Assembly (NCBI RefSeq): GCF_027923385.1
Contig: NZ_BSEC01000006.1
Span: 82,932 to 146,931, forward strand
Direction: 5' to 3'
Source: Methylocystis echinoides
GTDB lineage: Bacteria > Pseudomonadota > Alphaproteobacteria > Rhizobiales > Beijerinckiaceae
Length of the DNA stretch: 64,000 nt
The notes beneath the pieces are model-generated. The model was not told the DNA's origin. It searched no databases and saw nothing but the letters and a program-made list of their open reading frames with translations. Positions 2,448 through 22,533 of the stretch are shown here, piece by piece (the first letter of the stretch is position 1; every line of letters begins with the position of its first letter). A program made the translations under genes and the position numbers.

Positions 2448-2524
2448 CATCCCGCTCGCGTGAGGGAGAGACCTTCGGCGACGCCGCGGGTGGCGTGTTC
2501 GATCACGCTGCTCATTCAATATGA
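2444..2524 (+). CDS. 26-codon reading frame linking kaiB to the kinase
   Basis: An ATG at 2444 overlaps the kaiB stop as ATGA. The frame runs 26 codons and its TGA (2522-2524) overlaps the kinase ATG at 2521. This chain of stop/start overlaps suggests translational coupling between kaiB and the kinase, which has no clear ribosome-binding site of its own. The peptide resembles nothing I know. It could be a coupling device or chance. Confidence 0.3.
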   Translation: MTSRSREGETFGDAAGGVFDHAAHSI

Positions 2525-3728: not shown

Positions 3729-3771
3729 CTGTCGATCGTCAGTGCAAGTCTCGTGCGAGAATGCTTATCTT
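3729..3771 (+). promoter_or_regulatory. Weak FNR-type box with -10 before the antiporter gene
   Basis: CTGTCGATCGTCAG (3729-3742) resembles the CTGAC-N4-RTCAN boxes found elsewhere in this island, with one core change (A to T). A -10-like TATCTT starts at 3766, 30.5 bases from the box centre; the others have 28.5-29.5. The box centre is 66 bases before the ATG. It is the weakest member of the set. Confidence 0.35.
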
Positions 3772-5644: not shown

Positions 5645-6289
5645 CTAAGGCCGAATGATCGTGACGTTTCGGGGACCTTCCAGAGAAATTGCGCCGCGCT
5701 CGCGGAGATCCGTAAACGCTCGACAGACTGTCTCGGTCGAGAGCCCGAGCAGATCGGCGATGTCGTAGCGTGTAATGGGCAGAGCTAGATCGCTTTCGCC
5801 AGATCGGCCGATCCTATCTCTAAAATGGACCAGGAAAGCTCGCACCCGTTCCGGAGCCGACATTGTGCTCACTACGAAAATTTGCTGCTCCAGCCTTTCA
5901 ATTGCCGCGAAGGTTCCCAGTCGGATGAGCTTGGCAGTCGCCGGATCAGAGTCCGCGAGAGCCTCAATTGCCGCTCGGGGATAACAGGCAACTATTGTTC
6001 CCTCCACAATTGCTTGCACCGAGGACGCGTGCGCGTCGGATGATGAGAATCCAAAGAAGTCACCTGGGAGGTTAATGTCCGCAATTTGCCGTCGTCCATC
6101 ACTGCGGATACGATATTTGCGTGTCGCTCCGGAAACGATGCGATACCACCAGTCACAACGATGGTAATGTTCGAAGATGTCCTGATCACGCTGGAACGTC
6201 CTGAGGATGGCGATAGAGTTTAGGTCTTTCGGACTCTTGTTGATCCGTGGCTCGCAGTCCGAGCCGTCAAACCGCGATGAACGTTCCAT
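5645..6289 (-). CDS. Crp/Fnr-family transcription regulator, FixK-like
   Basis: Regulator of 214 residues with an N-terminal cyclic-nucleotide-binding-type beta barrel (IVSGATRKYRIRSDGRRQIADI, LPGDFFG) and a C-terminal winged helix (ITRYDIADLLGLSTETVCRAF). The cysteine cluster that binds the FNR iron-sulfur centre is absent, so it is FixK-like rather than an oxygen sensor. The recognition helix reads STETVCRAF; FNR has Glu-x-x-Ser-Arg there, so Ser is replaced by Cys. ATG 6289 was preferred over TTG 6322 because GAAGGGG precedes it. It is the best candidate in the window to bind the CTGAC-N4-RTCAN boxes before several stress genes (inference). Confidence 0.88.
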   Translation of the reverse strand: MERSSRFDGSDCEPRINKSPKDLNSIAILRTFQRDQDIFEHYHRCDWWYRIVSGATRKYRIRSDGRRQIADINLPGDFFGFSSSDAHASSVQAIVEGTIVACYPRAAIEALADSDPATAKLIRLGTFAAIERLEQQIFVVSTMSAPERVRAFLVHFRDRIGRSGESDLALPITRYDIADLLGLSTETVCRAFTDLRERGAISLEGPRNVTIIRP

Positions 6290-6515
6290 CGACGCCCCTT
6301 CAGAACGGAACCGTCCAAGCAATTGGACGACCGTGGTGACGATAGAAAAACGTGCGGGTAAGGAGCTATTTGTGGATTCACCTTATGGGAATTCTCGTAA
6401 AGGGAAATGGCCCGCTCAGAGAGTGGACGAGGTGGCGCGTCGTTACTGGGCGGGAGTCACATCTTGCCTTGCACGACCCGTTTGTCAGCACTTAGAGGTG
6501 GATCATCACTTGGCA

Positions 6516-7607
6516 CTACTCCTTTAAGCCAGCAAGAACCGCGAGCTTAATCGCCTCCGCGACGGTTTTCACTCCTAGCCGCCGCAACATGCGGGAACGA
6601 TGAACTTCAACGGTTCGGACACTTATGCCGAGTTCGTGGGCAATCTCCTTGTGTGCCTGACCGTCCGCGAGCCGGACGAGCACCTGCCGCTCACGCTCGC
6701 TTAGCGTTTGCACACGAGCTGCCGCCTCGTCGCGCTCGTCGGTGACCTCAGAGGATCCTCCCTCCTTTGAATCGGTCAACGTCTTTGACGTTCTCGCAAC
6801 CTCCTTCCCGACGACGCCAATCGCGACCGGTCCAGCCGGAGGAAGATCGAGGCGATAGAAATCGAACAGGAAAGGTCGGGTATCCTTCGACTTGGTATGG
6901 AGCAGCCGTAGCACTCCAGTCCAACGCCCGTCGGAGAGAATCCGATGCCAAACGCCATAACGCAGCTGATCGCGGTCTCCGAGCGCCAGAAAATCGGCAA
7001 TATGAAGTTCGGACGCCTCACGCAAATCAGCCAAGCCGACGTGTTCAAGGCCAGCGTGGTTCACGAAGAGCGGCCGGCCCTGAAGATTCACGATGCCGAT
7101 GAAGTCGGACGAAGCGGCGATGAGCCTTGCGAGATATGCGTTCGGAGCAGTTTCTTCGCGCCGTCGCAATTCCAACATGGCTTGGCTTGCCGCCATGCGC
7201 TGAAGGAGTGTTTCCACCTCAGTTGGGAAATCGGGCCGGTCCGACGCAACTATCACGGTCGCCTCGCCGTGATTGCCGATTGGCGTCGCGTGAACAGTCA
7301 CCTTGTTGCCGCTGACTGGGCTGACGATCTTTCCCCCGTCCGTGATGGCTGCCAACAGGGAGTTGCGGACAGTCGGAACGAATGGCGGCGGAAGACGTCC
7401 GTTGGGCCCATACACGAGCTCAACCACGACTTGCAGCGTCGCTATCGACATATATACAAAGTCGGCGTTGAGGGTCTTCACAAGGACCGAGGCCAGGCTT
7501 TCGACGACTGCGTCCTCCTCTAAGTCCTTCCAGTCCGCTTGCAGAGCGGATAGGCGAAAGAGGTCGTCGAGCGCGCGGACCAGCTTTTGATTTTCCTCCA
7601 CAGGCAT
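6516..7607 (-). CDS. GAF/PAS-domain LuxR-type response regulator
   Basis: Protein of 363 residues. The first 150 residues look GAF-like (LNADFVYMSIATLQVVVELVYG). Residues about 165-275 form a PAS domain (LIAASSDFIGIVNLQGRPLF). The C-terminal 60 residues are a LuxR/FixJ helix-turn-helix (LSERERQVLVRLADGQAHKE, then ISVRTVEVHRSRMLRRLGV). No receiver domain is visible, so it probably senses a ligand directly. It lies in the same direction as the FixK-like gene, about 225 bases upstream of it on the minus strand. Target genes are unknown. Confidence 0.85.
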   Translation of the reverse strand: MPVEENQKLVRALDDLFRLSALQADWKDLEEDAVVESLASVLVKTLNADFVYMSIATLQVVVELVYGPNGRLPPPFVPTVRNSLLAAITDGGKIVSPVSGNKVTVHATPIGNHGEATVIVASDRPDFPTEVETLLQRMAASQAMLELRRREETAPNAYLARLIAASSDFIGIVNLQGRPLFVNHAGLEHVGLADLREASELHIADFLALGDRDQLRYGVWHRILSDGRWTGVLRLLHTKSKDTRPFLFDFYRLDLPPAGPVAIGVVGKEVARTSKTLTDSKEGGSSEVTDERDEAAARVQTLSERERQVLVRLADGQAHKEIAHELGISVRTVEVHRSRMLRRLGVKTVAEAIKLAVLAGLKE

Positions 7608-7832
7608 TCGCGTCTCCGCCGATCAGGGGTCTGACAGATCCTGCGGATCGGCTCTTGCCTGCTACAATCAGGATCGGTTTTCGGCTACAGTTGGGTTCGT
7701 GTCAGCCGAGTGCAACTAGCCATATCAGATGCAGCAGGCAGTTGTCAGGCTCGCTCCACGGACTAAATTTGCAGCGGCGGCTAGGGCCTGTCCAGACGGA
7801 GCGGCGAGAAGTGTGAACCCGAAAGTGAGACC

Positions 7833-8156
7833 ATGAGGTTGGACACAAACGTGACTGCGAAGAAGCGACCCAGATATACCCTCCTCGATGATCCCGGGTC
7901 AGCTGCCGGGAACGAGATCATCGTCACTATTTTTGACTGGCAAGGGAAGGCCCCCATCCGGGCCACCCTCGGATGGATGGCGCATTCACGAGAAGGCGCG
8001 CACGTTGGCCCGGACGAGAGCGAGGAGGTCGATGTAGGCCTTGCACTCGCTCAGGCGCAGCGCCTGCTTCAGCGTTACGGTTTCCGTAGGATCGTGATCG
8101 TGCTTGAGCACGAAGACCTATGGGATCCCGCGTGGGGCGATCTTGTCCGCCGCTAA
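7833..8156 (+). CDS. Hypothetical protein, 107 aa
   Basis: Unrecognised soluble protein. It has regular amphipathic segments (NEIIVTIFDWQGKAPIRATLGW, VDVGLALAQAQRLLQRYGFRRIVIVLE), acidic composition and no signal peptide or membrane helix. The ribosome-binding site is weak. It sits between the regulator genes and the Hsp20 cluster. Composition and codon use look like a real gene, but no function can be given. Confidence 0.55.
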   Translation: MRLDTNVTAKKRPRYTLLDDPGSAAGNEIIVTIFDWQGKAPIRATLGWMAHSREGAHVGPDESEEVDVGLALAQAQRLLQRYGFRRIVIVLEHEDLWDPAWGDLVRR

Positions 8157-8333: not shown

Positions 8334-8375
8334 CTGACGGTCATCAGTGCCAATCTGGCGGAGAGTCGCCACGAT
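8334..8375 (+). promoter_or_regulatory. FNR-type box and -10 of the Hsp20 operon
   Basis: CTGACGGTCATCAG (8334-8347) is a CTGAC-N4-RTCAN palindrome. The hexamer CACGAT starts at 8370, 29.5 bases from the box centre, and the first Hsp20 ATG is 65 bases from the centre. The arrangement fits class II FNR-type activation, with the box at about -41.5. No heat-shock sigma-32 promoter was convincing here. Confidence 0.6.
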
Positions 8376-8405
8376 CCCTTCAACGTCAGTAAAGGGAGTT
8401 GGCAA

Positions 8406-8846
8406 ATGCTCGCCTATCCAGGAAATGCGGGGCGCACGTTCGATCCATTCCGGCAGATGCGACTCATGCAACAAGATGTGAATCGCGTGATGAACAACCT
8501 GCGAGCCCCCACAACGTCTGAATTTCCCCCGATCAACATTTGGACCGGCCCCGACGGCGCCGTGATCACTGCGGAGATTCCTGGCGTCGCTGCCGATGAC
8601 CTCGACATCGCAGTCCATCAGAACACAGTAACCCTTCGTGGCAAACGAGCCTCCGACCCGGTCACCGAAGGCGCCGTTGTTCATCGCCAAGAGCGCGTTG
8701 CGGGTTCCTTTGCCCGCAGCCTTGTCCTTCCGTTCCGCGTAGATGGGGAGAAGGCCGCCGCAGCGTTCCGGAACGGGCTGCTTCGGCTCGAGCTCCCTCG
8801 CCCCGACGCTGATCGGCCTCGCAAAATCGCAATAAGCCGGACTTGA
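8406..8846 (+). CDS. Hsp20/alpha-crystallin small heat-shock protein (first of three)
   Basis: ATP-independent holdase chaperone of 146 residues. A variable N-terminus with FDPFRQMRLMQQDVNRVM precedes the alpha-crystallin domain, which starts near NIWTGPDGAVITAEIPGV and contains the family GxL-type signature FRNGLLRLELP near residue 125. GGGAG precedes the ATG at a normal spacing. It is followed closely by two more Hsp20 genes in the same direction (12- and 7-base gaps), so the three form an operon. The three proteins differ strongly from each other, so this is not a recent triplication. Confidence 0.93.
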   Translation: MLAYPGNAGRTFDPFRQMRLMQQDVNRVMNNLRAPTTSEFPPINIWTGPDGAVITAEIPGVAADDLDIAVHQNTVTLRGKRASDPVTEGAVVHRQERVAGSFARSLVLPFRVDGEKAAAAFRNGLLRLELPRPDADRPRKIAISRT

Positions 8847-8858
8847 AGGAGACCCGTC

Positions 8859-9242
8859 ATGGCCGCTCAGGACACCAGTGTAGGCGAGGCCGCCGAATCC
8901 ACACGAGATGCGCCGGTCTTCGTCCCTCCAGCAGATATAATCGAGGATCAGTCCAGCCTGTTGATGGTTTTGGACCTCCCCGGCGCCGATCCCGAAAGCC
9001 TCGATGTGACGCTCGACAAGCGGCTCTTGCGGATCGCGGCGCGCTCGGTGCCGAGCCGCCCCGAAGGCTACACACTGCAGCACGCCGAGTATTGGGATGG
9101 CAATTACGAGCGGAGTTTTGTCATCTCAGAGCCAGTCGACGTGGCGAAAATCGAAGCGATTTTCAAAGACGGCGTTCTGCGGCTGACGCTGCCAAAGGCG
9201 ACGCCGGCGCCGGCTGCCAAGATTTCCGTCAAGGCGGCGTGA
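8859..9242 (+). CDS. Hsp20/alpha-crystallin small heat-shock protein (second)
   Basis: Small chaperone of 127 residues with a short N-terminus. The alpha-crystallin core begins near ADIIEDQSSLLMVLDLPGAD and ends with FKDGVLRLTLPKA, the family signature. The loop carries an unusual insertion, EGYTLQHAEYWDGNYERSF. No C-terminal IxI oligomerisation motif is obvious. GGAGA lies 8 bases before the ATG. It is the middle gene of a three-gene Hsp20 operon. Confidence 0.9.
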   Translation: MAAQDTSVGEAAESTRDAPVFVPPADIIEDQSSLLMVLDLPGADPESLDVTLDKRLLRIAARSVPSRPEGYTLQHAEYWDGNYERSFVISEPVDVAKIEAIFKDGVLRLTLPKATPAPAAKISVKAA

Positions 9243-9249
9243 GGCGACG

Positions 9250-9750
9250 ATGAAAATCACCGACCTCATTCCTTGGAGCGGCTCCGGGCGGCACGTGGGT
9301 CCGCAAACGGGACCGGTGGACCCGCTTCGTGCGCTGCGGCAGGACATTGACCGCGCATTTGAGCAATTCTGGAGGATGCTTCCATCCCCATTTCCGGAGT
9401 TCGCACCCTCCGCACCTGATTCCGTCCGGCTGGATGTCAGCGATAGCGACAAGGCGATAACGGTCACCGCCGAATTGCCTGGCCTCTCTGAGGATGACAT
9501 CGAGCTTTCGATCAGTGAGGGCTCTCTGACGATCCGCGGCGAAAGGAGTACCGACCGAAAAACTGAAGACGGAGGGCTCATCGTTCGCGAGCGAGCATAC
9601 GGCTCCTTCCAACGCACCCTGCAGCTTCCAGACGGTGTCGATGCCGATGCGGCAAGCGCGACATTCAAGAACGGGATATTGACCATCGAGGTCCCGAAAA
9701 CGGTTGAGTCAATCCCCAGTATTCAACGCATCCCTGTGCAGGCGGGTTAA
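9250..9750 (+). CDS. Hsp20/alpha-crystallin small heat-shock protein (third)
   Basis: Small chaperone of 166 residues, the longest of the three. The N-terminal part contains PLRALRQDIDRAFEQFW, typical of bacterial class A-like sHsps. The alpha-crystallin core spans about residues 56-150, with AELPGLSEDDIELSISEG, RERAYGSFQRTLQLPDGVD and FKNGILTIEVPK. It most resembles the Hsp20 at the right end of the window. It closes the operon and is followed by a GC-rich hairpin. Confidence 0.93.
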   Translation: MKITDLIPWSGSGRHVGPQTGPVDPLRALRQDIDRAFEQFWRMLPSPFPEFAPSAPDSVRLDVSDSDKAITVTAELPGLSEDDIELSISEGSLTIRGERSTDRKTEDGGLIVRERAYGSFQRTLQLPDGVDADAASATFKNGILTIEVPKTVESIPSIQRIPVQAG

Positions 9751-9782
9751 TATTGCCGCTCCAAGCCCCACCCGCCTTGCCT

Positions 9783-9811
9783 GCCCGCCATCCTCCCCCG
9801 GGGTGGCGGGC
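9783..9811 (+). terminator. GC-rich hairpin after the Hsp20 operon
   Basis: Arms GCCCGCCA (9783-9790) and TGGCGGGC (9804-9811) can pair around a 13-base loop 33 bases after the last Hsp20 stop. The T-tract is poor (AACTTTG), so efficiency as an intrinsic terminator is uncertain. Confidence 0.4.
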
Positions 9812-10328
9812 AACTTTGTGACCGCACCAGCTCATCATTGGCCGGCGGCGATCCCGGTGAAATTCCGGATTCCGCTCCTGCCTGGTTTGCAGGATGAAGA
9901 TCGACATCGACGACATTGGAAATGACCGGCCGGATCGTGCCGCCCATAGCGGAGGCGTCATGCCAATATGTGCCATTGGCACCGATAACGACGGAACCGT
10001 TACCTCCGCCACCGAGCGACCAGCGGGGCGGCGCATCGTCGAGTGATGAAGGCGAAATGCTCATGGGTCACGAGCCGTAATTTAAGCTGAGACATTATCT
10101 CGGTCTGCTGCGGATTGATCGCCAAGACGCTATCCAGCCGGTGTCGGAAAAGGCAGACTTGGTTTGGTAAGCCCAAGTCCTTTCGGTAACGAAAGCTCTG
10201 GTCTTTGGCCTCGTGTCGGAGATCCCCACGACGAGCATGGGACGCTCCCGGGCGTCCCGATTGTTCGTCCGTGAGGTCGCTCATTCGAGGAACGCTCCGG
10301 TCGAACGTGATCGACACAGGAGCGTTTC
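9812..10328. other. Intergenic stretch without a convincing gene
   Basis: About 500 bases between the Hsp20 operon and the monooxygenase gene. Short open frames exist on both strands (for example minus 10000-10317) but none has a good start signal or recognisable domain. It may hold decayed sequence. No CTGAC-type box was found in front of the monooxygenase. Confidence 0.5.
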
Positions 10329-11885
10329 ATGCCCAATTCCCAACCCATCTACGAAGTCGTAATCGCCGGCGGCGGCCCGGTCGGGCTCTTCCTTGCCTGC
10401 GAGTTGCGTCTCGCAGGCGTCTCCGTCCTTGTCCTGGAGCAGGCTGCCGATCCGCTGTCTCCTTTGAAGGCATTGCCGTTCGGAATGCGCGGTCTGTCCG
10501 CGCCGACCCTTGAGGTCCTCGATCGCCGCGGCCTGCTCGACGACGTCAGGGAGGCGAGCCAAGCGAACAATGCCTCGGGCGCCACCAAGGCCTTCGCGCA
10601 TTGGATGCAGCAACAGCAGCAGCGCCGGCCTGCCGGCCATTTCGCCGGCATCCAGTTCTTTAACGAGGACATCGACGTCTCGCGGTGGCCGTACCGGCTG
10701 CCGAGTCTGGCCGGGGTCAATCTAGCCGTGGACATGCAGTCCCTGGAAACCGTCCTCGCTGCCCGGGCGACCGCAATGGGGGCGGAGATCCAGCGTGGCG
10801 TCGGAGTCGAAGCTTTCGAGCAGACCGACAACACCGTGATCGTCCGCGCTGGCGGCCAGACCTTCCACTCGCGATGGCTAGTGGCCTGCGATGGCGGGCG
10901 CAGCGCCGTGCGCAAGGCTGGCGGCTTCGAATTCGCCGGCACCGATCCCGAATTCACCGGCTACTCGGTCGAGGTGGAACTGGCAAACCCGGAGACGCTC
11001 CGCGTCGGACGCACCTATACCCGGACGGGCATGTACACCTACGCGCAGCCCGGCACGATCGCGATGGTCGACTTCGATCGCGGCGCCTTCCACCGCACAC
11101 AGCCGATCACGATGGACCACGTGCAGGTTGTTTTGCGCCGGATCTCCGGCGCCGACGTCACCTTGACCGCCCTCCGGCTCGCGACCACATGGACGGACCG
11201 AGCCCGCCAGGCGACGGCCTACCGCAACGGACGGGTGATGCTTGCCGGCGACGCCGCGCACACGCATTCGCCGCTGGGCGGTCAGGGTCTCAATCTAGGC
11301 CTCGGCGACGCAACAAACCTGGGCTGGAAGCTGGCGGCCACCATCCATGGGCGCGCCCCGGCCGGATTGCTCGATAGCTATTTCGCTGAACGCCATCCCG
11401 AGGGCGCGCGGATTCTCGACTGGTCCCGCGCTCAGGTCGCGCTTATGCGCCCTACGCCGAGCACCCGAGCGCTCGAATCTATCATCCGCGATCTCATCGG
11501 AACGCGTGACGGCGCGACCTACTTCGCCGAAAAGGTATGGGGCCTGTCGCTGCGCTATGATCTCGGCGGCGGTCACCCTTTGGTGGGCCGGAGCGCTCCC
11601 GATTTTACGCTGATCGATGGAACGAGGGTGGGGAAACTCCTGCAGGACGGCCGTGGCCTGCTGCTGGATTTTGCTCCAGGCGCGCCGCTACGGCTGCTGG
11701 CCGGCCGCTGGCAGGGGCGGTTCAACTACATTTCGGGGGACGCCGAGAACCGGCTCGGATTACGCGCCATCCTCATCCGTCCCGATGGTATGGTTGCCTC
11801 AGCGATTGAGAGCGCCGCAGACGATCAAGGCGTTCGCCAGGCGGCCGAGCGCTGGTTCGGTGAGCCTGACGGGCCGCCTAGCTAA
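10329..11885 (+). CDS. FAD-dependent aromatic-ring monooxygenase
   Basis: Flavoprotein hydroxylase of the PHBH/RdmE type, 518 residues. The ADP-binding motif GGGPVG is near residue 14, the DG motif CDGGRSAVRKAGG near 190, and the GD motif LAGDAAHTHSPLGGQGLN near 305. A thioredoxin-like C-terminal domain of about 110 residues follows, as in polyketide and phenol hydroxylases. It uses NAD(P)H and O2 to hydroxylate an aromatic substrate, which cannot be named from sequence. Its stop overlaps the convergent aldo/keto reductase gene by 4 bases. Confidence 0.88.
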   Translation: MPNSQPIYEVVIAGGGPVGLFLACELRLAGVSVLVLEQAADPLSPLKALPFGMRGLSAPTLEVLDRRGLLDDVREASQANNASGATKAFAHWMQQQQQRRPAGHFAGIQFFNEDIDVSRWPYRLPSLAGVNLAVDMQSLETVLAARATAMGAEIQRGVGVEAFEQTDNTVIVRAGGQTFHSRWLVACDGGRSAVRKAGGFEFAGTDPEFTGYSVEVELANPETLRVGRTYTRTGMYTYAQPGTIAMVDFDRGAFHRTQPITMDHVQVVLRRISGADVTLTALRLATTWTDRARQATAYRNGRVMLAGDAAHTHSPLGGQGLNLGLGDATNLGWKLAATIHGRAPAGLLDSYFAERHPEGARILDWSRAQVALMRPTPSTRALESIIRDLIGTRDGATYFAEKVWGLSLRYDLGGGHPLVGRSAPDFTLIDGTRVGKLLQDGRGLLLDFAPGAPLRLLAGRWQGRFNYISGDAENRLGLRAILIRPDGMVASAIESAADDQGVRQAAERWFGEPDGPPS

Positions 11886-12709
11886 GTCGTGCTGCGCGGC
11901 ATGGCGAAGATGCGAACGAGTTCAACCAGATCTGCCGGGGCAAGTCGCAGATCGAGCGCGTCGCGGTTCTCCCTCACATGCCGTACGTTTCCTGCTTTCG
12001 GAATCGCGACAATTCCGTCCTGTCTCAAGACCCAGGCGAGGGCCAGCTGGGCGCGGCTACAGCCGTACCGCTCTGCCGCGCGGGCAAGCCGCCCGTCCCT
12101 AGCGAGATGACCTCCGCAGATGGGAGAATGTGCCATGATCGGAACACCCCGCTCCCTGCACCATGGAAGAAGGTCGCACTCGATGTCTCGCCGGCACAGA
12201 TTGTAGGCGATCTGATTTACCTGCACCAATTTTCCCACGGGAATGGCCGCGAGGTCCTTCAAATCGCGGATGAGGAAATTTCCGACACCCCAATAGCGTA
12301 TTTTCCCGGCGCTTCTGAGCGCCTCAAAGCCGTCGATCGTTTCGGCGAGAGGGACGTTGCCTCGCCAATGCAGCAGAAAAAGATCAATTCGGTCCGTACG
12401 AAGTCTTCTCAGGCTGCGTTCGCAAGACGTAACGACACCGAGGCGGGAAGCGTGATGCGGATGAACCTTGCTCACAAGGAACACCTTCTCGCGCTGCCCG
12501 TCGATCGCCTCCGCCACCACCTGCTCTGCTCCACCGTCTGCGTAAGACTCCGCGGTGTCGATTAGAGTCATCCCGAGATCGATGCCCGTCTTCAACGCGG
12601 CGATCTCGTCGCGAGATGAACCGCTGTGCTCCCCCATTCCAGCTGTGCCTTGTCCGAGCACCGGTATAGCCTCGCCCGCCGGCAAGGTGGTCTTCCTGCT
12701 CGCTGACAT
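11882..12709 (-). CDS. Aldo/keto reductase
   Basis: NADPH-dependent oxidoreductase of the AKR superfamily, 275 residues. The catalytic tetrad is visible: Asp in LIDTAESY, Tyr in the same segment, Lys in FLVSKVHP and His in FLLHWRG. The C-terminal cofactor loop IPKAGNVRHVREN is intact. ATG 12709 was chosen (AGGA just upstream); an upstream in-frame start at 12748 would cover the -10-like hexamer. The likely role is carbonyl or aldehyde detoxification. A CTGAC-type box lies 78 bases upstream. Confidence 0.92.
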   Translation of the reverse strand: MSASRKTTLPAGEAIPVLGQGTAGMGEHSGSSRDEIAALKTGIDLGMTLIDTAESYADGGAEQVVAEAIDGQREKVFLVSKVHPHHASRLGVVTSCERSLRRLRTDRIDLFLLHWRGNVPLAETIDGFEALRSAGKIRYWGVGNFLIRDLKDLAAIPVGKLVQVNQIAYNLCRRDIECDLLPWCRERGVPIMAHSPICGGHLARDGRLARAAERYGCSRAQLALAWVLRQDGIVAIPKAGNVRHVRENRDALDLRLAPADLVELVRIFAMPRSTT

Positions 12710-12752
12710 GGGGTTTCCTAACTGGCACGGTGGCAAGAGCGCGCACAAATTG

Positions 12753-12794
12753 AGGCTAACTGATCTCGCAGGGCTGGGAACTGACCACCGTCAC
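12753..12794 (-). promoter_or_regulatory. FNR-type box and -10 of the aldo/keto reductase gene
   Basis: Plus-strand CTGACCACCGTCAC (12781-12794) is the palindrome. On the minus strand TAGCCT starts at 12758, exactly 29.5 bases from the box centre. The rest of the 356-base gap up to 13065 shows no gene. Confidence 0.6.
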
Positions 12795-13065
12795 GCTGGG
12801 TTGGAGACGGCGCCCGCGTGTGTGCGATTTTTTGAGGACTGACTGCGCCTACGACCCTCGCCCCGACATGTGGGATTCCCTTATCGTAAGAACCCCTAAT
12901 GGCAGGTCTCGGCAGATGACGGAGGCAGGATCGGAGTAATAGTCTACGAGCGAACGCTCCGAGCCGGCAGATCACGCGCACTGTTCGGAGGTCGAAGGCC
13001 CGGTACTCACCAAATAGTTTCGATGCCCTGGACCGATGGGGAATTCGACGCAACGATCCCATGCC

Positions 13066-14106
13066 TTAGACTGCCTCTATGATCACCTTTAGCGCTCGTG
13101 TGTCCGCAGCCTTCGAGAAAGTGTCATATGCATCAAGGATATCGTCGAGCTTAAAACGATGGGTAATCAACTGCTTAGGATCGATCTTTCCTGATCGTAC
13201 CGTCTTGAGCAACATAGGCGTGCTGACCGTGTCCACTAAACGGGTAGTGATGGCGATATTATGAGACCAGAGCTTCTCGAGATGCAGGTCGGCCTTGAAG
13301 CCATGAACCCCAACATTAGCGATAACGCCCCCGGCCGCGACGATCTCCTGGCACAGCTCGAACGTCGGTGCGATACCCACTGCCTCTATGACCGTATCAA
13401 CGCCTTTGTTTTCCGTCAGCTCGAAGACCCTCTGCTTCGCCTCTTCTCCAGTGGCTCTTATCGTGTTTGTCGCGCCGAAGCGCTTTGCAGCCTGCAGCCG
13501 ATTCTCATCAAGATCGATGACGATGAGTTCCGCCGGTGAATAGAACTGCGCAGTGAGTAACGCAGCTAATCCGACCGGCCCGGCGCCGACGATGGCGACG
13601 GACCCGCCAGGTTGCACTTTGCCGTTGAGAACACCGCATTCGAAGCCAGTCGGCAAGATGTCGCTCAACATGACGAGGGCGTCTTCGTCGGCCCCGTCCG
13701 GGATCGGATAAAGGCTGGTGTCGGCGTGAGGAATACGAACGTACTCGGCCTGAGTCCCGTCGATCGTATTGCCAAGGATCCAGCCTCCTGTGGTGCAGTG
13801 AGAATACATTCCACGCCGGCAGTACTCGCACTTCCCGCAGGACGAGATGCAGGAAATCAACACGGAGTCGCCCTTCTTGAACTGGGTTACACCCGCGCCA
13901 ACCTGCTCTATGACTCCTACGCCCTCATGGCCAAGGATACGTCCAGGAGTGCACGACGGCACGTCTCCTTTGAGGATATGGAGATCGGTGCCACAGATTG
14001 TGGTCTTCGTCATCCTTACAATTGCGTCGGTCGCGCTGTCGATCACCGGGATGTTGCGGTCCTTCAACGTCTTTCGGCCCGGTCCCTCAAAGATTAGAGC
14101 TTTCAC
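13066..14106 (-). CDS. Zinc-dependent alcohol dehydrogenase (MDR family)
   Basis: NAD(P)-dependent medium-chain dehydrogenase, 346 residues. Catalytic zinc ligands Cys38, His60 and Glu61 are present (TICGTDLH, GHEGVG), as are the structural zinc ligands Cys90, Cys93, Cys96 and Cys104 (SSCGKCEYCRRGMYSHC). The Rossmann motif is VAIVGAGPVGLAAL near residue 170. It oxidises or reduces alcohol/aldehyde pairs; the substrate is unknown. A CTGAC-type box with a perfect-spaced TATCCT lies upstream. The 394 bases up to the universal stress gene contain two divergent promoters and no other gene. Confidence 0.93.
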   Translation of the reverse strand: MKALIFEGPGRKTLKDRNIPVIDSATDAIVRMTKTTICGTDLHILKGDVPSCTPGRILGHEGVGVIEQVGAGVTQFKKGDSVLISCISSCGKCEYCRRGMYSHCTTGGWILGNTIDGTQAEYVRIPHADTSLYPIPDGADEDALVMLSDILPTGFECGVLNGKVQPGGSVAIVGAGPVGLAALLTAQFYSPAELIVIDLDENRLQAAKRFGATNTIRATGEEAKQRVFELTENKGVDTVIEAVGIAPTFELCQEIVAAGGVIANVGVHGFKADLHLEKLWSHNIAITTRLVDTVSTPMLLKTVRSGKIDPKQLITHRFKLDDILDAYDTFSKAADTRALKVIIEAV

Positions 14107-14145
14107 AGCGGTCTCCGCGTCTGACTATCTTCAAGTGCGGTGGCC

Positions 14146-14187
14146 AGGATAGGTGAGGCTCGACCACCACGCACTGACGTTGATCAT
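14146..14187 (-). promoter_or_regulatory. FNR-type box and -10 of the alcohol dehydrogenase gene
   Basis: Plus-strand CTGACGTTGATCAT (14174-14187) is the box. On the minus strand TATCCT runs from 14151 to 14146, 29.5 bases from the box centre, the same spacing as at dnaK and the aldo/keto reductase. The box centre is 74 bases before the ATG. Confidence 0.65.
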
Positions 14188-14405
14188 TTTTCCAAAGCAA
14201 GTCCCAAGACCCACGGTCGGGGTCTCGCTCTGGTGATCGGAAAAGCTACGGCAATGGAGATTGGCTCGCTGAACAGAACCAGCCTGAGTCATCGCAGGTG
14301 TCCCTCCGAGTGCAAGTCCTAATCAAACAGCGGCGTCAGATTGTGAGGGGCCATGGTCGGGCTTCCGCGGTTTAAGGCGCGCTCATGGGCAAAAGGGCGG
14401 CGAAG

Positions 14406-14447
14406 CTGACGAGCGTCAATGTGTTCGCACGGTCGAGGTCTCATCCT
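14406..14447 (+). promoter_or_regulatory. FNR-type box and -10 of the universal stress gene
   Basis: CTGACGAGCGTCAA (14406-14419) with CATCCT starting at 14442, 29.5 bases from the box centre. The ATG is 88 bases from the centre. Confidence 0.6.
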
Positions 14448-14500
14448 ACTGGGCCGACCGTCGACATAGGTCAAACCGTTGCCACAGCTTGGAGGCGAGA

Positions 14501-15337
14501 ATGATAAAGGTCTTGGTTGTCAGAGTTGACGGAACCAGTGGCGACGAATTCCGCCTCGCAGCCGCAGAAAGTTTGGCGAAACTCTTCGAAACGCATGTTG
14601 TTGGCCTGATAATCAATGTTCTGCCCGAACCGATCATCGTAGAGACCATGACCAGCGTAACCGACTGGTCAGAGAGTCTTGAACACGCACGCGCACAAGG
14701 ACGGCAATTCGAGGAGCGGACGAAGGAGCGGCTGAAGAGTCTCGCTCCTTCGTCGGAGGTGCGTCGTATCGATGCATATTCCCATGAGCGGGCGTTCCTC
14801 ACCGCCCGGGAATGTCGGAGCGCAGACGTGCTCGTCGGTCTTCGACTGAGCGACGATGATGATACAATTGAGCTGCATGACGTGATCGAGGAGACGCTAT
14901 TCGAGGCGGGCCGACACATCTTTCTCGTGGCCGACCAGAAGACCTTCGATGGAGGCTTTGAGCATTCAGTTGTCGCTTGGAACGGGAGCCGCGAGGCAAC
15001 GCGTGCAGTGGCGGAGGCCTTGCCGTATCTGAAAAAATCAAAAGCGGTAACTGTTCTGCGCATAGGCGCCGAAACAGATTCAATCCTCTCGGCTGTGCAG
15101 GATGACAGGCTGGTCGCATACCTCCGGAGACATGGCATTATCGCTTCGCTGGAGCGAGTTCCGCACAAGGGGTTCCAGGACATTGCGACAGTGCTCATCC
15201 ATGAAGTGGTCGCTCGTAAGGGCGATCTGCTCGTGATGGGTGGTTACGGTCATTCGCGCCTGCGCGAATGGTTGCTCGGAGGCACTACATACAGGTTACT
15301 TCGTAAGTGCCCGATCTCGCTTGTGATGGCGCACTGA
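14501..15337 (+). CDS. Universal stress protein, two-domain
   Basis: UspA-family protein of 278 residues with two tandem folds. The second half carries SVVAWNGSREATRAVAEALP and the nucleotide-binding signature GGYGHSRLREWLLGGTT. The first half is more diverged (IKVLVVRVDGTSGDEFRLAA). ATG 14501 was chosen because GGAGG sits 7 bases upstream. Family members bind ATP or act in survival under starvation, anoxia and heat; the exact role here is unknown. Confidence 0.9.
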   Translation: MIKVLVVRVDGTSGDEFRLAAAESLAKLFETHVVGLIINVLPEPIIVETMTSVTDWSESLEHARAQGRQFEERTKERLKSLAPSSEVRRIDAYSHERAFLTARECRSADVLVGLRLSDDDDTIELHDVIEETLFEAGRHIFLVADQKTFDGGFEHSVVAWNGSREATRAVAEALPYLKKSKAVTVLRIGAETDSILSAVQDDRLVAYLRRHGIIASLERVPHKGFQDIATVLIHEVVARKGDLLVMGGYGHSRLREWLLGGTTYRLLRKCPISLVMAH

Positions 15338-15578
15338 AGACGGCCTTGTACACTACCGACCGCGTTGAAGAATGTTTCGAACGCTATGCGCGGCGTCGCT
15401 GCGTCCGTGAACAAGCAAAGTAGTTCACGCATCCCTTTACTCATAGGATGTGCTGTCGCGTCTTTGCATTGGTAGCAATAGCGGGCGTCGGGAGTACCTC
15501 CCTGCGGCGTCGTGGGTTCAGGCCGGAGGGTTGCATCAATGAAATGCAGGTCTGCCATAAGGGTTGAGGCGCGGTGAG

Positions 15579-16226
15579 ATGACCACTGTTGATGACGAAG
15601 AAATTCTCGAGACCCGAAGGGTGCGCGAGGTTGCGGGTGTGTTTCACAAATCGGATGTCCTTGAGGACACGATTGAATCCCTTTTGCTCGCGGGCTTCGA
15701 CCGGTCAGACGTGGATATCATGGGTGAAGTTGAAGCCGTCAGACGCCGTCTCGGCCAGCTGTATATTCCACCAGAGGAGCTTGCCGATGTGCCGGGAACA
15801 CCGCGCCGTGCATTCGTCGCGCGAGATGACCTCGCATTGGCGACCGCAGGTGTCGCTGGAATTCTTTTCTATGTCGGCGCGGCGGCCACAGTAATGTCTA
15901 TCGTCGCTTCCGGAGGAAGCCTCGCGGTTATAGCAGCGGCTGCGATGGCCGCCGGGACGGTTGGAGCGGGTGTCGGCGCGGCAGCGGTGCGGCTGCTCGG
16001 AAAAAGGCAGGCGGAGGAACTCGATCTCCAGCTGATGTCAGGGGGAATTGTGCTCTGGGTGCGCGTGCGAACGGCCGAAAAGGAAGCGGAAGCGCAGGAA
16101 ATCCTAGCAAAGTTTGGCGCTGAAGCGATTCGTGTCCATGAGATAGATATCGCGAAGCGCCTCGAGGACGTTCCGCTTGCGAATGTCCACCCGGACCCCT
16201 GGCTCGAAAAGGACGTGCGGAGTTAG
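15579..16226 (+). CDS. Hypothetical stress-related membrane protein
   Basis: Protein of 215 residues. The N-terminal 70 residues (VAGVFHKSDVLEDTIESLLLAGFDRSDVDI) resemble the small stress domain of YflT/17M-type proteins. The middle (residues about 90-145) is a glycine- and alanine-rich hydrophobic stretch that could form one or two membrane helices or a glycine zipper. The C-terminal part ends in a short alpha/beta segment. GAGG precedes ATG 15579. Position between a universal stress gene and dnaK supports a stress role. Confidence 0.65.
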   Translation: MTTVDDEEILETRRVREVAGVFHKSDVLEDTIESLLLAGFDRSDVDIMGEVEAVRRRLGQLYIPPEELADVPGTPRRAFVARDDLALATAGVAGILFYVGAAATVMSIVASGGSLAVIAAAAMAAGTVGAGVGAAAVRLLGKRQAEELDLQLMSGGIVLWVRVRTAEKEAEAQEILAKFGAEAIRVHEIDIAKRLEDVPLANVHPDPWLEKDVRS

Positions 16227-16448
16227 GAGACCGGGCTCCCGAAGCGCCAAAGTGCGAACCTGTTCATAGGGCAGAAGACACATCCGCCAGACAGGGCCGA
16301 TGCGTTCCCACCGAATAGGAGAGGCAGCAATCGGCCGGTTGCCAGCTGTCAGTTCCCGCGGTGCGAGCGCATTTTGCCGTCGGCCCGCGAAAGCACGCCG
16401 TCGCCGTCGACCTGACTATTGTCCCTGCATGGCGAGAGTGCCGCAAGA

Positions 16449-16490
16449 CTGACGTCCGTCAACGTCGATGGTCTCGGGTAAGATCATAAT
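16449..16490 (+). promoter_or_regulatory. FNR-type box and -10 of dnaK
   Basis: CTGACGTCCGTCAA (16449-16462) with CATAAT at 16485-16490, 29.5 bases from the box centre. The ATG of dnaK is 81 bases from the centre. No sigma-32 consensus was recognised in the 310-base gap before dnaK, which is otherwise empty. Confidence 0.65.
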
Positions 16491-16506
16491 TCTCAGCACG
16501 GATTAG

Positions 16507-18438
<1,932 letters not shown>

Positions 18439-18512
18439 CAGTTGCGGGCCGCGCCGGATCGCGGCGTGCAAGCGGTCCTACAAAGCGCAGCCTGTATCGC
18501 CGCATCCGTTGA

Positions 18513-19046
18513 TCACTTGCCGCCTGTGACATCGAGAAATGTGCCGGTGCTGAAGGAGGCCTCGGCGCTTGCTAGCCAAGGATCGCTCGCGCAACCTCTT
18601 CGGACTGCCCGCCCCTGCCCATGGGGGATCGATCTTTGTCTCGATCCTAGTCCCGGCTCTCCCCCGCTGGCATGCATCCCAGTGTAGACGGGCCCCGGTC
18701 CGATGCAGTTGACGCGTATCCCGTCCCGAGCGACCTCCTTGGCAAGGCCGGTTGTGAACCTCTCGAAGGGCAGCCTTCGAGGCGGCGTAGTCCACATATT
18801 CGTTCGGACTTCGAGCCGGGGCGAGGCCGACGAGATGTTGATGAGCGCCCCGACCACTTTGGCGATGCGCTGGCACGGCTTGGTCGTTACCGTGCCGACC
18901 ATCCGGATGTCGAAATGGCGGTCACGACGATTTCGTGCGTCGTTGAGGAATTGCGAGGTGGCGTCGATGTATCGATCCGACGGGGCGTCGTTAGGGAGGA
19001 TGGGTGGCGCCAACATCGCGTCGTGCCGGTGCTGGATGATGTCGAC
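18513..19046 (-). pseudogene. Short-chain dehydrogenase (SDR) remnant, multiply frameshifted
   Basis: Pieces of an SDR appear in different frames: INISSAS (catalytic Ser strand), then SPNEYVDYAASKAAL (the YxxxK catalytic motif) in another frame, then GLAKEVARDGIRVNCIGPGPVYTGMHASGGEPG and the C-terminal FSTGTFLDVTGGK in the first frame. At least two frameshifts separate them and the N-terminal Rossmann motif is not recognisable. It abuts a LysR remnant of opposite strand, consistent with a decayed regulator/SDR pair. Confidence 0.65.
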
Positions 19047-19054
19047 ACGCTGGT

Positions 19055-19442
19055 CATGAGCCCGCGCTGTTCGCGAAGCGGCCGATCCTGAAGCCCGCCG
19101 ATATCGAGCGGCATACTCTGCTCGCAAGCGAAACCCGCCCCGGCGATTGGGCGAACAGGCTCGATGCCGGCGCTCCCGCATCTTGTCCGACGCCCGCGCC
19201 AGATATTTGACCGATCCACGCGCCAGGCAGTGGAAGACGGGCTCGGCATCGGGGTCGGCCCGCTACCGACGCTGGCGATCGACATCGCCAGTCGACGGCT
19301 GACGACGCCGCTGCCGGATATCCTCTTTCCGAGGACCGGTTATGTCTCAATCATCCCGCAGCAGGCCGAAAGCGGGAAGCATGCTGCCAGCTTCGTCGAC
19401 TGGCTTGTCGGGGAGCCTCAGGGAGCGGTCGGCGATACTTGA
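19055..19442 (+). pseudogene. LysR-family regulator C-terminal remnant, frameshifted
   Basis: The segment HEPALFAKRPILKPADIERH followed by TLLASETRPGDW matches the effector domain of GcvA-type LysR regulators but stops at PAPDI. The next frame continues with ARQ-like VEDGLGIGVGPLPTLAIDIA and ends FVDWLVGEP. The frameshift is near 19165-19195. The N-terminal DNA-binding half is absent. Confidence 0.6.
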
Positions 19443-19473
19443 CAAGCCCAGTCACCCCGCCGGCGCCCGCGAT

Positions 19474-20109
19474 TCAGAATAGTGCCGCTTCTTCGCGTCC
19501 AGACGTAGATGCCCCCGATGACTTTCGCAGCTTCACTCCGAGCGTGATGAGGACGACCCCGAGGATCGAGGCATAGATGCCGAGCAGCCAGCCCAGTGCG
19601 AGGAAGGTCTCAAACGGCCGCGTCACCAGAAGCCAAATGACGAGTATGCTGAGCGCGACGGAAAGAAGGCCGCTGATAAACAGCCAGACCTCGCCCTTAA
19701 TTTCGTTTCTCAAGCGAATGGCAGCAGCTATTTCAAAAACACCTGAGAACATCGACCAGAACGCAATGCTCACCCATAGAAACGTTGCAAGCACCAGCGT
19801 GGCAACAAAGGGCGATACCACCACGACAATGCCGGTCAAGACGCCAAGCGCGCCGCTGAAGGCAAGCCATCCCCATCGTTCCTCCTTACGGATCCGTCGA
19901 ATGGCGGAGACGAGTTCGAACGCGCCGTCGACGAAGGAGTACGCACCGAATACGAGCGTCAGCGCGAGCAGAGAGTCTGCCGGCATTACGAAAGCGATTA
20001 CGGCGATGATTAAAGCCAAAGCTCCGCGGAGTACAAAGACCCACCAGTTTTTCTGCAACGTGCAGATCAGAACTCCTGTTGCAGGCAGGGGAACGGTGTC
20101 TTGGTTCAT
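19474..20109 (-). CDS. hdeD: HdeD-family membrane protein
   Basis: Inner-membrane protein of 211 residues with six hydrophobic helices arranged as three repeated hairpins (WWVFVLRGALALIIAVIAF; LAFSGALGVLTGIVVVVSPF; VWLFISGLLSVALSILVIW). This is the HdeD (DUF308) pattern. E. coli HdeD is linked to acid resistance at high cell density, and a HdeD homologue is a standard gene of the tLST stress island. Transcription is leftwards, in the same direction as yfdX upstream. No CTGAC-type box was found before it. Confidence 0.88.
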   Translation of the reverse strand: MNQDTVPLPATGVLICTLQKNWWVFVLRGALALIIAVIAFVMPADSLLALTLVFGAYSFVDGAFELVSAIRRIRKEERWGWLAFSGALGVLTGIVVVVSPFVATLVLATFLWVSIAFWSMFSGVFEIAAAIRLRNEIKGEVWLFISGLLSVALSILVIWLLVTRPFETFLALGWLLGIYASILGVVLITLGVKLRKSSGASTSGREEAALF

Positions 20110-20448
20110 GTCGATTTCCTTTTTTGCATCGTCCTGACGTTTCCCCGGTTGGGTTTAGGCAAGACTCTGCGCGGGGCTGCCGCATCCGCGGGGAGTGGGA
20201 GTCGCTTGGCCGGCCGTATTATCGCTAGTTCCAGAGTACATCCCGCGGATGGGTCCGCTCGGTGCTTCCTTGGCATGCAGCTCTGCCACCTCCGCTTCGA
20301 GCAGTGTTTGCCGCTCGAAGCTATTTGGAGGTCTCGTTCCACGCGGAGCCAGAGTCCGAGCGAAGTGCTGCTTGAGCTACTGGCGGCCGAGCCATGTACG
20401 AATTTTAGGACGGGTGGAGGCGCCCCGGTCTGCCGAGCCGACGTTGCA
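20110..20448. other. Gap between hdeD and yfdX, no gene seen
   Basis: About 340 bases between two genes of the same strand. Open frames exist but are shadows of yfdX or compositional. No strong hairpin or regulatory site was recognised. Confidence 0.45.
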
Positions 20449-21366
20449 TCAAAACAGGTCTGAGACCTGCTTCTTGATCCTGTCGAACCAGCCCTTGCCG
20501 CTCTTCCCGCCACTTGACTTCTGTTCGATCTCTTTGATCTGCTCGAATATCGGCTCGAAGTCCGCCTTCTTGCCGTAACCCAAAGCCTCCGCCATTCTGA
20601 TCTGCTTCCGGGCTTCGTCGAGTTGCGCGGCGAGCGATTTGTTGCTCTCTTCCGAGCGCTTATCGTCTTCCGCGAGCTTTTCAGCATCTTTCAAAAGAAC
20701 TTGCGCGCGCAGTACGGGCAGTGGCACGGCCACCTCCGTAATGACCAGCGTGTTCAGCGCCGCCTGAAGGGTGTCTTTTGCTTCATCCACCTTGCTCTTG
20801 GCGATGAGACTGGCCGCGGACTTGATCGCCGTAGGATAGGCAGCGAGTGGCAAATTCGTGGTCTGGAACACCACCTCGCTGGCGAGGTTACTGACCAAGG
20901 GGCGTGCCTTTTGAACTTCTCCGTCGCCGAGCAGTCTCCGCGCCTCCTTGATCGCGTCTTTTACGGCATTGGGATCCGCGTATAGGTCGCGGATGACGAC
21001 CCCGGTATCCACCGGCGCTAGTGCGAGCTTGGGGTCGCGCGCCAGGATAAGTTCCAGCTTCCCGGTAGCGACTTCAAGCGCCCCGAGGGCCTCTTGTGTC
21101 TTCTTGTCGCCGAGCAGCGCCAATGCCTTCTTCGTTTGGTCGAGCGCTGTCTCGGCGTCGACGACGATCTTCTTGCGTTCTTCTTCTGACCGTTTGGCGA
21201 CGTCAGCATCCACTTCGGGTTGTGCTGACTTCGCCGTCGGCGATTGCTCCTGCGCCGGGTTCGCCTGAGACTGGGACTGTTCCTGCCCACGGGCTGGAAC
21301 CCCATGTGCGGCGACCAGGCTCAGCGCCGCCGCGGAAAGCAGTATACTTTTAAGATTGGTTGTCAT
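20449..21366 (-). CDS. yfdX: YfdX-family periplasmic protein
   Basis: Secreted protein of 305 residues. A signal peptide (KSILLSAAALSLVAAHGVPA) precedes a charged, Gln-rich linker, then the YfdX helical repeat region with LDQTKKALALLGDKKTQEAL, the DTGVVIRDLYADPNAVKDAI block and ATYPT-like LPLAAYPTAIKSAASLI. The C-terminal third is predicted coiled coil and is an extension beyond typical YfdX. YfdX proteins are chaperone-like periplasmic proteins found in tLST beside HdeD; the neighbourhood here is the same. Confidence 0.88.
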   Translation of the reverse strand: MTTNLKSILLSAAALSLVAAHGVPARGQEQSQSQANPAQEQSPTAKSAQPEVDADVAKRSEEERKKIVVDAETALDQTKKALALLGDKKTQEALGALEVATGKLELILARDPKLALAPVDTGVVIRDLYADPNAVKDAIKEARRLLGDGEVQKARPLVSNLASEVVFQTTNLPLAAYPTAIKSAASLIAKSKVDEAKDTLQAALNTLVITEVAVPLPVLRAQVLLKDAEKLAEDDKRSEESNKSLAAQLDEARKQIRMAEALGYGKKADFEPIFEQIKEIEQKSSGGKSGKGWFDRIKKQVSDLF

Positions 21367-21759
21367 TGATGATCTCCCTTGTTGCAGCGTGGTTGAATCA
21401 GCGCGGGCTCACGGTTGCACCGGCAATCGCTACGGATCTGCACATCGGCCTCAACCTGATGCGTCAGGTCCAGCTCACGGTCCCTTTCTCTTGGCGGGCA
21501 GGCGCCGCGGAGCTGTCGGCAGACAAAGAGCATTGATGGCAACTCCGCCTCCGACCGACACTGACAATCGACAGTTTTTCGCGAGATACGGCGCTCGAAG
21601 CGCGGACGGCTGTTTCCGAAGGCCCGCTCACGCGGCGTGACAGGGGGCGCTCCACGGATTGCAGCCTGCCTGCCCCTGAAGGTCGGACGTTTGTTTTCCT
21701 GCCAAGTGGCGGTTCGTCGCGAGAGCAGCTTCGTGCTGAATCTGCGTCCACATCGAAAA
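21367..21759. other. Gap upstream of yfdX, no gene seen
   Basis: Divergent spacer between yfdX (leftward) and the BON gene (rightward). A short CCTGATGCGTCAGG palindrome occurs near 21460 but its spacing does not fit the FNR-type boxes. No gene was found. Confidence 0.45.
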
Positions 21760-21800
21760 CTGACGCCTGTCAGCGCGCGCCATCATGCCCGGCGTAGCGT
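21760..21800 (+). promoter_or_regulatory. FNR-type box and -10 of the BON gene
   Basis: CTGACGCCTGTCAG (21760-21773) is a perfect palindrome of the family. TAGCGT starts at 21795, 28.5 bases from the centre, one base closer than in most of the other copies. The ATG is 113 bases from the box centre, so the leader would be longer. Confidence 0.5.
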
Positions 21801-21879
21801 GGTTACGCCGTAAGTTGCGGAGGACCGACCAGGGGCCTCGCAGCGCGGCCATGCTCAATTGGCAGAAGGAAATAGAACA

Positions 21880-22533
21880 ATGAGATCTGACAGTGACATC
21901 AAGCGCGACGTGGAATTCGAGCTGAAGTGGGACCCCGACATCGACGCCACCGACATCGGCGTTGCGGTCAAGTCCGGCGTCGTGACGCTCACGGGTTTCG
22001 TCCGCAGCTATCTGCAAAAGTACGAAGCAGAGCGGGCCGCAAAGCGTGTGTCCGGAGTTCTCGGGCTGGCGAACGACATCGAAGTGCGGCTTCCCACCGA
22101 GAGTCAGCGTACGGATCCAGAGCTGGCGCGCGACGCCGTTGCCGCGATCAAGACCGAGCTCCCCTACGCGCACGAAAATATCAAGGTGCTGGTGAAGACT
22201 GGCTGGGCAACGCTTGAGGGCACCGTCGAATGGGACTACCAGCGCACGCGCGCTGAACGTGCGGTCCGGGCACTGAAAGGCATAAAGGGTATCAGTAACC
22301 TGATCACGCTGAAGCCCCGCGTCGCGCCGTCCGAAATCAAGTCGAAGATCGAGGATGCGTTCAAGCGGAGCGCCGAGATTGACGCCAATCGGATCGTTGT
22401 GACCGCAAATGGCGGCGAAGTGACGCTCACGGGCGCGGTTCGCTCGTGGGCCGAACGCCAGGAGGCCGAGCGGGCCGCCTGGCGCGCACCTGGTGTGACG
22501 AAGGTGGACAACCGCATCACCATTGCTCCCTGA
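21880..22533 (+). CDS. Protein with three BON domains
   Basis: Protein of 217 residues made of three BON repeats. Each has the pattern I-(R/D)-(V/I)-x-V-x-x-G-x-V-T-L-x-G-x-V ([57 protein letters not shown]) followed by an A-E-R-A helix and a NDIEV/NLITL/NRITI strand. No signal peptide is present, unlike OsmY. BON proteins bind membranes or phospholipids and are induced by osmotic and envelope stress. AAGGAAA precedes ATG 21880. Confidence 0.9.

Follow-up and report, generated by a model that had tools for sequence, protein, structure and literature searches.

Control of chaperone genes by FixK- or FNR-type proteins is already known, and so are islands resembling the transmissible locus of stress tolerance (tLST). 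In Bradyrhizobium diazoefficiens, direct or putative targets of the CRP/FNR activator FixK2 include hspC2 (Hsp20), groEL5, a universal stress protein (USP) gene and dnaJ; the FixK2 box is TTGA/C-N6-T/GCAA and C183 of the protein is a redox switch (excerpts of PMC9104804). In Rhizobium leguminosarum, an FnrN-controlled Hsp20 gene is induced microaerobically via an anaerobox (excerpts of PMC11784457). In Burkholderia cenocepacia, the lxa locus groups 50 low-oxygen genes, among them those for USPs, a heat-shock protein and a phospholipid-binding protein, and is linked to an Anr/FixK-like regulator (excerpts of PMC6127331), and alphaproteobacterial FNR/FixK lists include Hsp20 and UspA (excerpts of PMC2908626). 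The present analysis concerns a 64,000-nucleotide stretch of Methylocystis echinoides (C6:82932-146931 of genome G000, 5.32 Mb in 10 contigs; hereafter the window), in which palindromic boxes precede stress genes. Very probably, these boxes are the operators of a FixK-type protein whose gene lies with them in one mobile island, and they form a class II regulon of shifted specificity.

The boxes and the regulator gene lie in a protein-quality-control island of about 32 kb (C6:73901-105700, 31.8 kb, in all counts). It differs from the FixK2 system, as the excerpts describe it, by the outer C of its box, by having no cysteine at the C183 position and by encoding the regulator within the mobile island that it serves. 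The R. leguminosarum case, again as excerpted (PMC11784457), differs in having one small heat-shock protein (sHSP) gene, a general oxygen regulator and a canonical TTGA-N6-TCAA site. In the lxa locus the suggested regulator, BCAM0049, lies outside BCAM0275-0323, and no CTGAC box was met in the excerpts of PMC6127331. The island resembles the tLST in being mobile and in combining Hsp20, FtsH, YfdX, DUF308, PsiE, a KefB-type antiporter and a redoxin (tLST content after excerpts of PMC8290217 and general background). The tLST set of Hsp20, FtsH, YfdX, HdeD-type, KefB and PsiE genes was found together, the HdeD model scoring 22 bits on the island protein, far below its cut-off of 189. Unlike the tLST, the island carries DnaK-DnaJ-GrpE and a dedicated FixK-type regulator, with no ClpG/ClpK inside. 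The open-access literature searched showed no case of a mobile proteostasis island that has a FixK-type activator of its own along with matching, shifted operators.

An earlier note on the window had proposed that FNR-type boxes, phased with -10-like hexamers, precede six stress genes. The box CTGACNNNNRTCA was matched exactly, with zero mismatches, at 8334, 12781, 14174, 14406, 16449 and 21760. The regulator gene and the six boxes are as follows (window positions).

5645..6322, minus strand: FixK-type CRP/FNR regulator, proposed as activator of the regulon
8334..8347, plus strand: box CTGACGGTCATCAG of the Hsp20 operon, with -10-like CACGAT at 8370-8375
12781..12794, minus strand: box GTGACGGTGGTCAG (gene direction) of the aldo/keto reductase, with -10-like TAGCCT at 12758-12753
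14174..14187, minus strand: box ATGATCAACGTCAG (gene direction; TGAT-N4-GTCA) of the zinc alcohol dehydrogenase, with -10-like TATCCT at 14151-14146
14406..14419, plus strand: box CTGACGAGCGTCAA of the USP gene, with -10-like CATCCT at 14442-14447
16449..16462, plus strand: box CTGACGTCCGTCAA of dnaK, with -10-like CATAAT at 16485-16490
21760..21773, plus strand: box CTGACGCCTGTCAG of the BON protein, with -10-like TAGCGT at 21795-21800 (offset 28.5)

As the earlier note had it, the hexamer starts 29.5 bases from the box centre at five promoters (CACGAT, TAGCCT, TATCCT, CATCCT and CATAAT) and 28.5 bases from it at the BON gene, and the boxes serve both gene directions, two on the minus strand and four on the plus strand. 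This is the class II CRP/FNR geometry, in which the box centre lies about 29.5 bases from the -10 start, i.e., at -41.5. Control by sigma-32, which the note had also set aside, was rejected: the best match to the -35 element CTTGAAA had 3-4 mismatches at all six promoters, and nothing came closer than three. Further members of the regulon lie outside the window: grpE (box at C6:76109) and the DUF5335 gene (box at C6:74040-74051). The grpE box falls inside the gene under the longest frame; some 110 bases past the box there is an in-frame ATG, at C6:76218. The idea that a single regulon unites chaperones, redox enzymes and USP was supported, with two changes: the regulon is local to the mobile island, and it has members beyond the window.

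Boxes with at most one mismatch numbered 52 in the window, against 22.0 +/- 5.4 expected, a count reached in 0 of 100 shuffles. Genome-wide, TGAC-N4-GTCA occurred 98 times and the reversed pattern 25 times, and the island held seven of the 98 where 0.55 would be expected from the rest of the genome. The whole-genome search suggested in that note, for the box followed by ANNNT at the 29.5 phase, returned 17 hits (reversed pattern: 1), six of them in the island, where 0.07 would be expected. Since the boxes had already been seen when the island was delimited, its P values are optimistic, and loci held out from the original observation weigh more for that reason.

Phase was tested by rotating each downstream stretch 5000 times, with an E. 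coli -10 weight matrix. For the six promoters of the earlier note, 0 of 5000 rotations reached the mean hexamer score, and all six had a hexamer at 28.5-30.5 (null 0.83; 0/5000). Among all gene-facing boxes of C6 the figure was 7 of 12 (null 1.5; 0/5000). In the deep held-out loci (NGR234, G772, AzoB, G171, G270 and G301), 15 of the 30 gene-facing boxes had a hexamer at 28.5-30.5 (null 3.6 +/- 1.7; 0/5000), the same phase as in the window. The loci with a V..S recognition helix (see below) alone gave 7 phased boxes of 15 (null 2.2; 11/5000), and Propylenella gave 5 of 7 (null 0.67; 1/5000). Altogether, the 49 gene-facing boxes of eight loci had offsets of 29.5 (15 boxes), 30.5 (7) and 28.5 (5), with 0-5 boxes at any other offset. 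That weak -10 hexamers were picked up by chance near a common palindrome might be argued from the poor match of individual hexamers to TATAAT and from the 98 copies of TGAC-N4-GTCA in this genome; density, conservation and the phase in the unseen held-out loci contradict it, and such an origin is extremely improbable.

In islands that the earlier note never saw, orthologous genes are preceded by the same type of box, and its phase is the same. At seven promoters shared by C6 and Propylenella, the 12-base box was identical at 79 of 84 positions and the -10 window at 52%; identity was 40% upstream, 46% in the spacer and 42% downstream. The Propylenella boxes were picked by pattern, so that only the four pattern-free central bases make a fair comparison; these were identical at 24 of 28 positions (hand count from printed pairs). 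The USP box, its phase and its hexamer are all kept in Propylenella and Prosthecomicrobium. The phased dnaK hexamer is CATACT in the former and GATACT in the latter, and the BON hexamer is TAGCCT at 28.5 in both. The Hsp20 operon box is conserved in Propylenella, with CATCAT at 30.5, and the aldo/keto reductase orthologue of NGR234 has a phased box with TAGGAT at 29.5. Twenty phased boxes of loci with a cysteine in the recognition helix gave the consensus CTGACG-N2-CGTCA(G/A). A 40-kb stretch of Azospirillum brasilense has 16 oriented boxes altogether, and for seven annotated genes the facing box is followed by a hexamer at 28.5-30.5: USP, BON and redoxin (CATAAT), DUF5335 (CATACT), DnaJ (TATGGT), TMEM175 (TACAGT) and TrxC (CATCAT). 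On this plasmid (L111), one palindrome at 28677-28688 has a phased -10 on each side, between the divergent TrxC and TMEM175 genes, and two overlapping boxes lie at 24292-24318 in the intergenic region shared by the divergent DnaJ and DUF5335 genes.

The regulator matches FixK2 as its nearest solved structure (4i2o; PDB match, E 3e-30), and its best NCBIfam model is FixK, at 131.9 bits below a cut-off of 300. Relatives 97-100% identical were found in the metagenome scaffold L038, in Bradyrhizobium and in Pleomorphomonas (5.9-kb contig). Identity was 78-79% in Propylenella and Prosthecomicrobium, 56% in Sinorhizobium fredii NGR234, 55-56% in G772 and G1150, 44-47% in Azospirillum plasmids, and 40-44% in G171, G270 and G301. 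Few genomes carry the regulator: in the class it was found at E 1e-40 in 4 of 385, own genome included. Relatives were present in 5 of 397 genomes in the order of G022 at 1e-38. At 1e-36, the family of G772 had relatives in 7 of 346 genomes, of which five, only 39-46% identical, served as controls.

The Glu and Arg of the recognition helix are kept in 12 of 12 aligned regulators, and the helix is of two types: T/A/P-ETVCR in C6, Propylenella, Prosthecomicrobium, NGR234 and G772, and V-ETVSR in Azospirillum, G171, G270 and G301. A mixed type, V..C, was read in 24 of 118 parsed relatives. The outer base of the box follows the helix, V..S occurring with TTGAC and T/A/P..C with CTGAC, a striking association that is not proof. 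Outer bases of strict palindromes were C 36 / T 13 in five T/A/P..C loci and C 3 / T 17 in three V..S loci (Fisher 1e-5, computed ignoring descent). This count excludes 13 half-sites (9 and 4) whose outer base is A or G, G301 for want of a palindrome, and AzoA39, G877 and L039Brady. In phased gene-facing boxes they were C 26 / T 10 (Cys type) and C 1 / T 12 (V..S type). The Ser/Cys position of the helix would have the role of Ser212 of E. coli FNR; nothing on it was found in the open-access literature searched. In FixK2, Leu195 contacts thymine 8, beside the 'neighbor nucleotides' 6 and 7 (excerpts of PMC9104804), and thymine 8 would correspond to the first base of the box.

Canonical sites were absent from the C6 island, which held no TTGAT-N4-ATCAA and no TTGA-N6-TCAA. 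The FNR-type label of the earlier note stands for the activator, which is of the FNR/FixK type, and fails for the box, which has an outer C in place of T. TTGA-N6-TCAA was likewise missing from Propylenella, NGR234 and G772 and occurred once in Prosthecomicrobium; each V..S locus had 2-5 copies, and 5 of 9 control loci had it. TGAC-N4-GTCA was found 36 times in 212 kb of eight regulator-clade loci (none in G301) and not once in the 302 kb around nine other FixK-like regulators; fixLJ or cbb3 oxidase genes occur in some of those nine loci. This comparison leaves out Prosthecomicrobium, AzoA39, G877 and L039Brady (near duplicates) and G1150 (added later); C6 and Propylenella were cropped to the island and the other loci were uncropped. 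Phased hits near the regulator, out of those genome-wide, were 6/17 in this genome, 6/23, 4/36, 3/11 and 4/6 in G021-G024, and 4/7 in G772.

These counts bear on the chance that a chromosomal FNR/FixK-family protein of the host binds the boxes, with the island regulator minor or aimed at other targets. The genome does hold four further weak relatives of the regulator, and cross-binding among CRP/FNR proteins is possible; however, from host to host the boxes go with the island regulator, none being found around the nine other regulators, their outer base tracks its helix, and canonical TTGA-N6-TCAA is absent from the island. Control by a host protein is accordingly judged unlikely. Use of the boxes by another island regulator, a PAS-LuxR protein or a sigma factor, is less likely still and quite improbable: relatives of the PAS-LuxR protein lie near the regulator in most compared islands, but a CRP/FNR protein is what the TGA half-sites, the spacing of class II type and the link between helix and box would suggest, and the phased hexamers are -10-like.

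Several observations weigh against assigning the boxes to the island regulator. No phased hexamer follows 5 of the 12 gene-facing boxes in C6 and 15 of the 30 in the deep set, and Propylenella alone is ordinary in mean score at exactly 29.5 (660/5000). Oriented boxes facing no listed gene peak at 29.5 too (10 of 61 held-out), in part because the gene list comprises homologues of C6 genes only and genes absent from C6 are not listed. The aldo/keto reductase and antiporter orthologues of Propylenella have no box. The helix-box association is a single split in the tree. The regulator's locus holds 1 of 16 genome-wide phased hits in G171 and 3 of 22 in G270. In G1150, which has a Cys-type regulator, the 20.8 kb searched next to it contain no palindrome and the regulator's contig has 0 of 10 phased hits; with the regulator at a contig end, this genome was set aside as uninformative.

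The island moves between hosts, as near-identical copies attest: its DNA is 98.5-98.6% identical to G877 (31.5 kb aligned), 99.8% to scaffold L038 (20.7 kb) and 97.5% to Bradyrhizobium campsiandrae (16.2 kb). Contig C6 (146,931 bases) carries ParA, a relaxase and conjugation genes, with TraG and a VirB11-type ATPase. Two identical 2,671-bp IS21-type copies lie in the same orientation 39.7 kb apart, one to each side of the island (window 25684-28354 and C6:66221-68891), the right-hand copy interrupting the start of the TraG frame (23825-25696). A composite transposon was rejected: each copy has its own target repeat (AGCTCA; CCAAGGG, 6-7 bases), and the island of G877 runs uninterrupted through the right-hand site, which makes the copies separate insertions.

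Under control by the island's FixK-type protein, a dimer of that protein would occupy CTGACG-N2-CGTCAG, the centre of the box lying near -41.5. It would act as a class II activator, without a -35 element, recruiting sigma-70-type polymerase to weak -10s and setting the transcription starts of the promoters of Hsp20, dnaK, grpE, USP, alcohol dehydrogenase, aldo/keto reductase, BON and DUF5335. As the island moves, it would take both regulator and operators along. This branch has T/A/P where FixK2 has Leu195, Cys in position 199 and C as the outer base, and so differs from the V..S / TTGAC branch; with helix and outer base both changed, the island operators would be unlike canonical FNR/FixK boxes. 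The inducing signal would concern low oxygen, redox state or energy, and the PAS kinase and PAS-LuxR protein of the island may pass it on. Among these, analogy with the FixK2 targets, the FnrN-controlled sHSP, the lxa locus and the alphaproteobacterial FNR/FixK lists favours low oxygen. The FNR-type N-terminal cysteine cluster (C-x2-5-C-x4-6-C in the first 60 residues) occurred in 0 of 121 proteins. The FixK2 Cys183 position is Thr in the island regulator and Ser, Thr or Ala in the 118 proteins parsed of 121; a cysteine there is not common to all FixK proteins, and its lack here is therefore not decisive. More tentatively, the island may be a mobile proteostasis unit with its own circuit. The recognition helix of its activator would have shifted in step with the operators (Leu/Val195 to Thr/Ala/Pro and Ser199 to Cys in the helix; outer T to C in the box), insulating the island from the FNR/FixK network of any host that it enters, and the new helix cysteine might replace Cys183 as a thiol switch.

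From C6:73.4 kb the island contains, in order (in a scan that did not take in every small frame), DUF5335, a DnaJ-type protein, a MerR_2 protein taken as CbpM, PsiE, GrpE, a redoxin, two Hsp20 genes, an NDUS4-type protein, an omega-like (Rpb6) protein, FtsH, a PAS kinase, a KefB-type antiporter, the FixK-type regulator, a PAS-LuxR protein, three Hsp20 genes (five in all), an FAD monooxygenase, the aldo/keto reductase, the zinc alcohol dehydrogenase, the USP, DnaK, a short-chain dehydrogenase-like frame, DUF308, YfdX and BON, where it ends. The remaining features of the window are the following.

2521..3639, plus strand: PAS histidine kinase, a possible sensor
3729..3742, plus strand: weak antiporter box, judged outside the regulon
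6516..7607, minus strand: PAS-LuxR protein, possibly an upstream regulator of the FixK-type gene
8406..9750, plus strand: three Hsp20 genes (8406-8846, 8859-9242, 9250-9750)
11882..12748, minus strand: aldo/keto reductase
13066..14106, minus strand: zinc alcohol dehydrogenase
14489..15337, plus strand: USP (longest frame)
16537..18438, plus strand: second DnaK
19474..21366, minus strand: DUF308 and YfdX genes, where no phased box of their own was found
21859..22533, plus strand: BON-domain protein

The weaker copy that the earlier note placed before the antiporter at 3729 was rejected: it is mismatched (CTGTC), its TATCTT begins at 30.5 rather than 29.5, and nothing similar precedes the antiporter gene in Propylenella. 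Exact box matches at 4400 and 24343 fall within the antiporter and TraG reading frames. Autoregulation in this window was rejected, as no box was seen between 6322 and 6515, upstream of the regulator gene; the regulator gene itself is preceded by a box in NGR234, G171, G270 and G301. Long stretches conserved with Propylenella lie at 6322-6515, just upstream of the FixK-type gene, and at 7607-7836, upstream of the PAS-LuxR gene; these box-free stretches are possible sites for another regulator. The chromosomal DnaK is 74% identical to that of the island, and no box was found in the 4.9-kb chromosomal dnaK locus searched.

The plasmid-borne omega-like (Rpb6 Pfam) RNA-polymerase protein (C6:81285-81593; L047:3285-3593) adjoins the NDUS4-type and Hsp20 genes and is shared with Propylenella and Prosthecomicrobium. 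At C6:70903-71619 (L046:10903-11619) lies a protein of 238 aa that weakly matches sigma-70 region 4, and in the A. brasilense island, too, a 'sigma factor' adjoins DUF5335. A LuxR protein with an autoinducer-binding domain (window 22929-23678) lies between the BON gene and TraG. The PsiE homologue of Propylenella is seemingly split into two frames (L062:3491-3836).

Outside the window, a second proteostasis module (C6:1530-13227; L043) holds FtsH, a ClpK-like disaggregase, an ECF-like sigma factor, DUF308, a ClpP-like SDH-type protease and a Na/H exchanger. The ClpB_D2-small profile matched on the contig only at C6:5986, about 68 kb from the island, and the protein there is ClpK-like (1600 bits, cut-off 1900). 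No phased box faces ftsH or clpK in this module; one phased box lies at C6:13269, just past the Na/H exchanger.

Mobile stress islands bring their hosts new tolerance, and little is known about what turns them on after arrival in a new host; for the tLST, the factors mediating expression are 'not fully elucidated' according to excerpts of a review (PMC8290217). An island with its own activator and matched operators, if that is what this one is, would have portable expression. The pairing of helix and box offers a compact, testable case of a CRP/FNR regulator changing its DNA specificity, and control by the island regulator predicts that chaperones would be induced without sigma-32.

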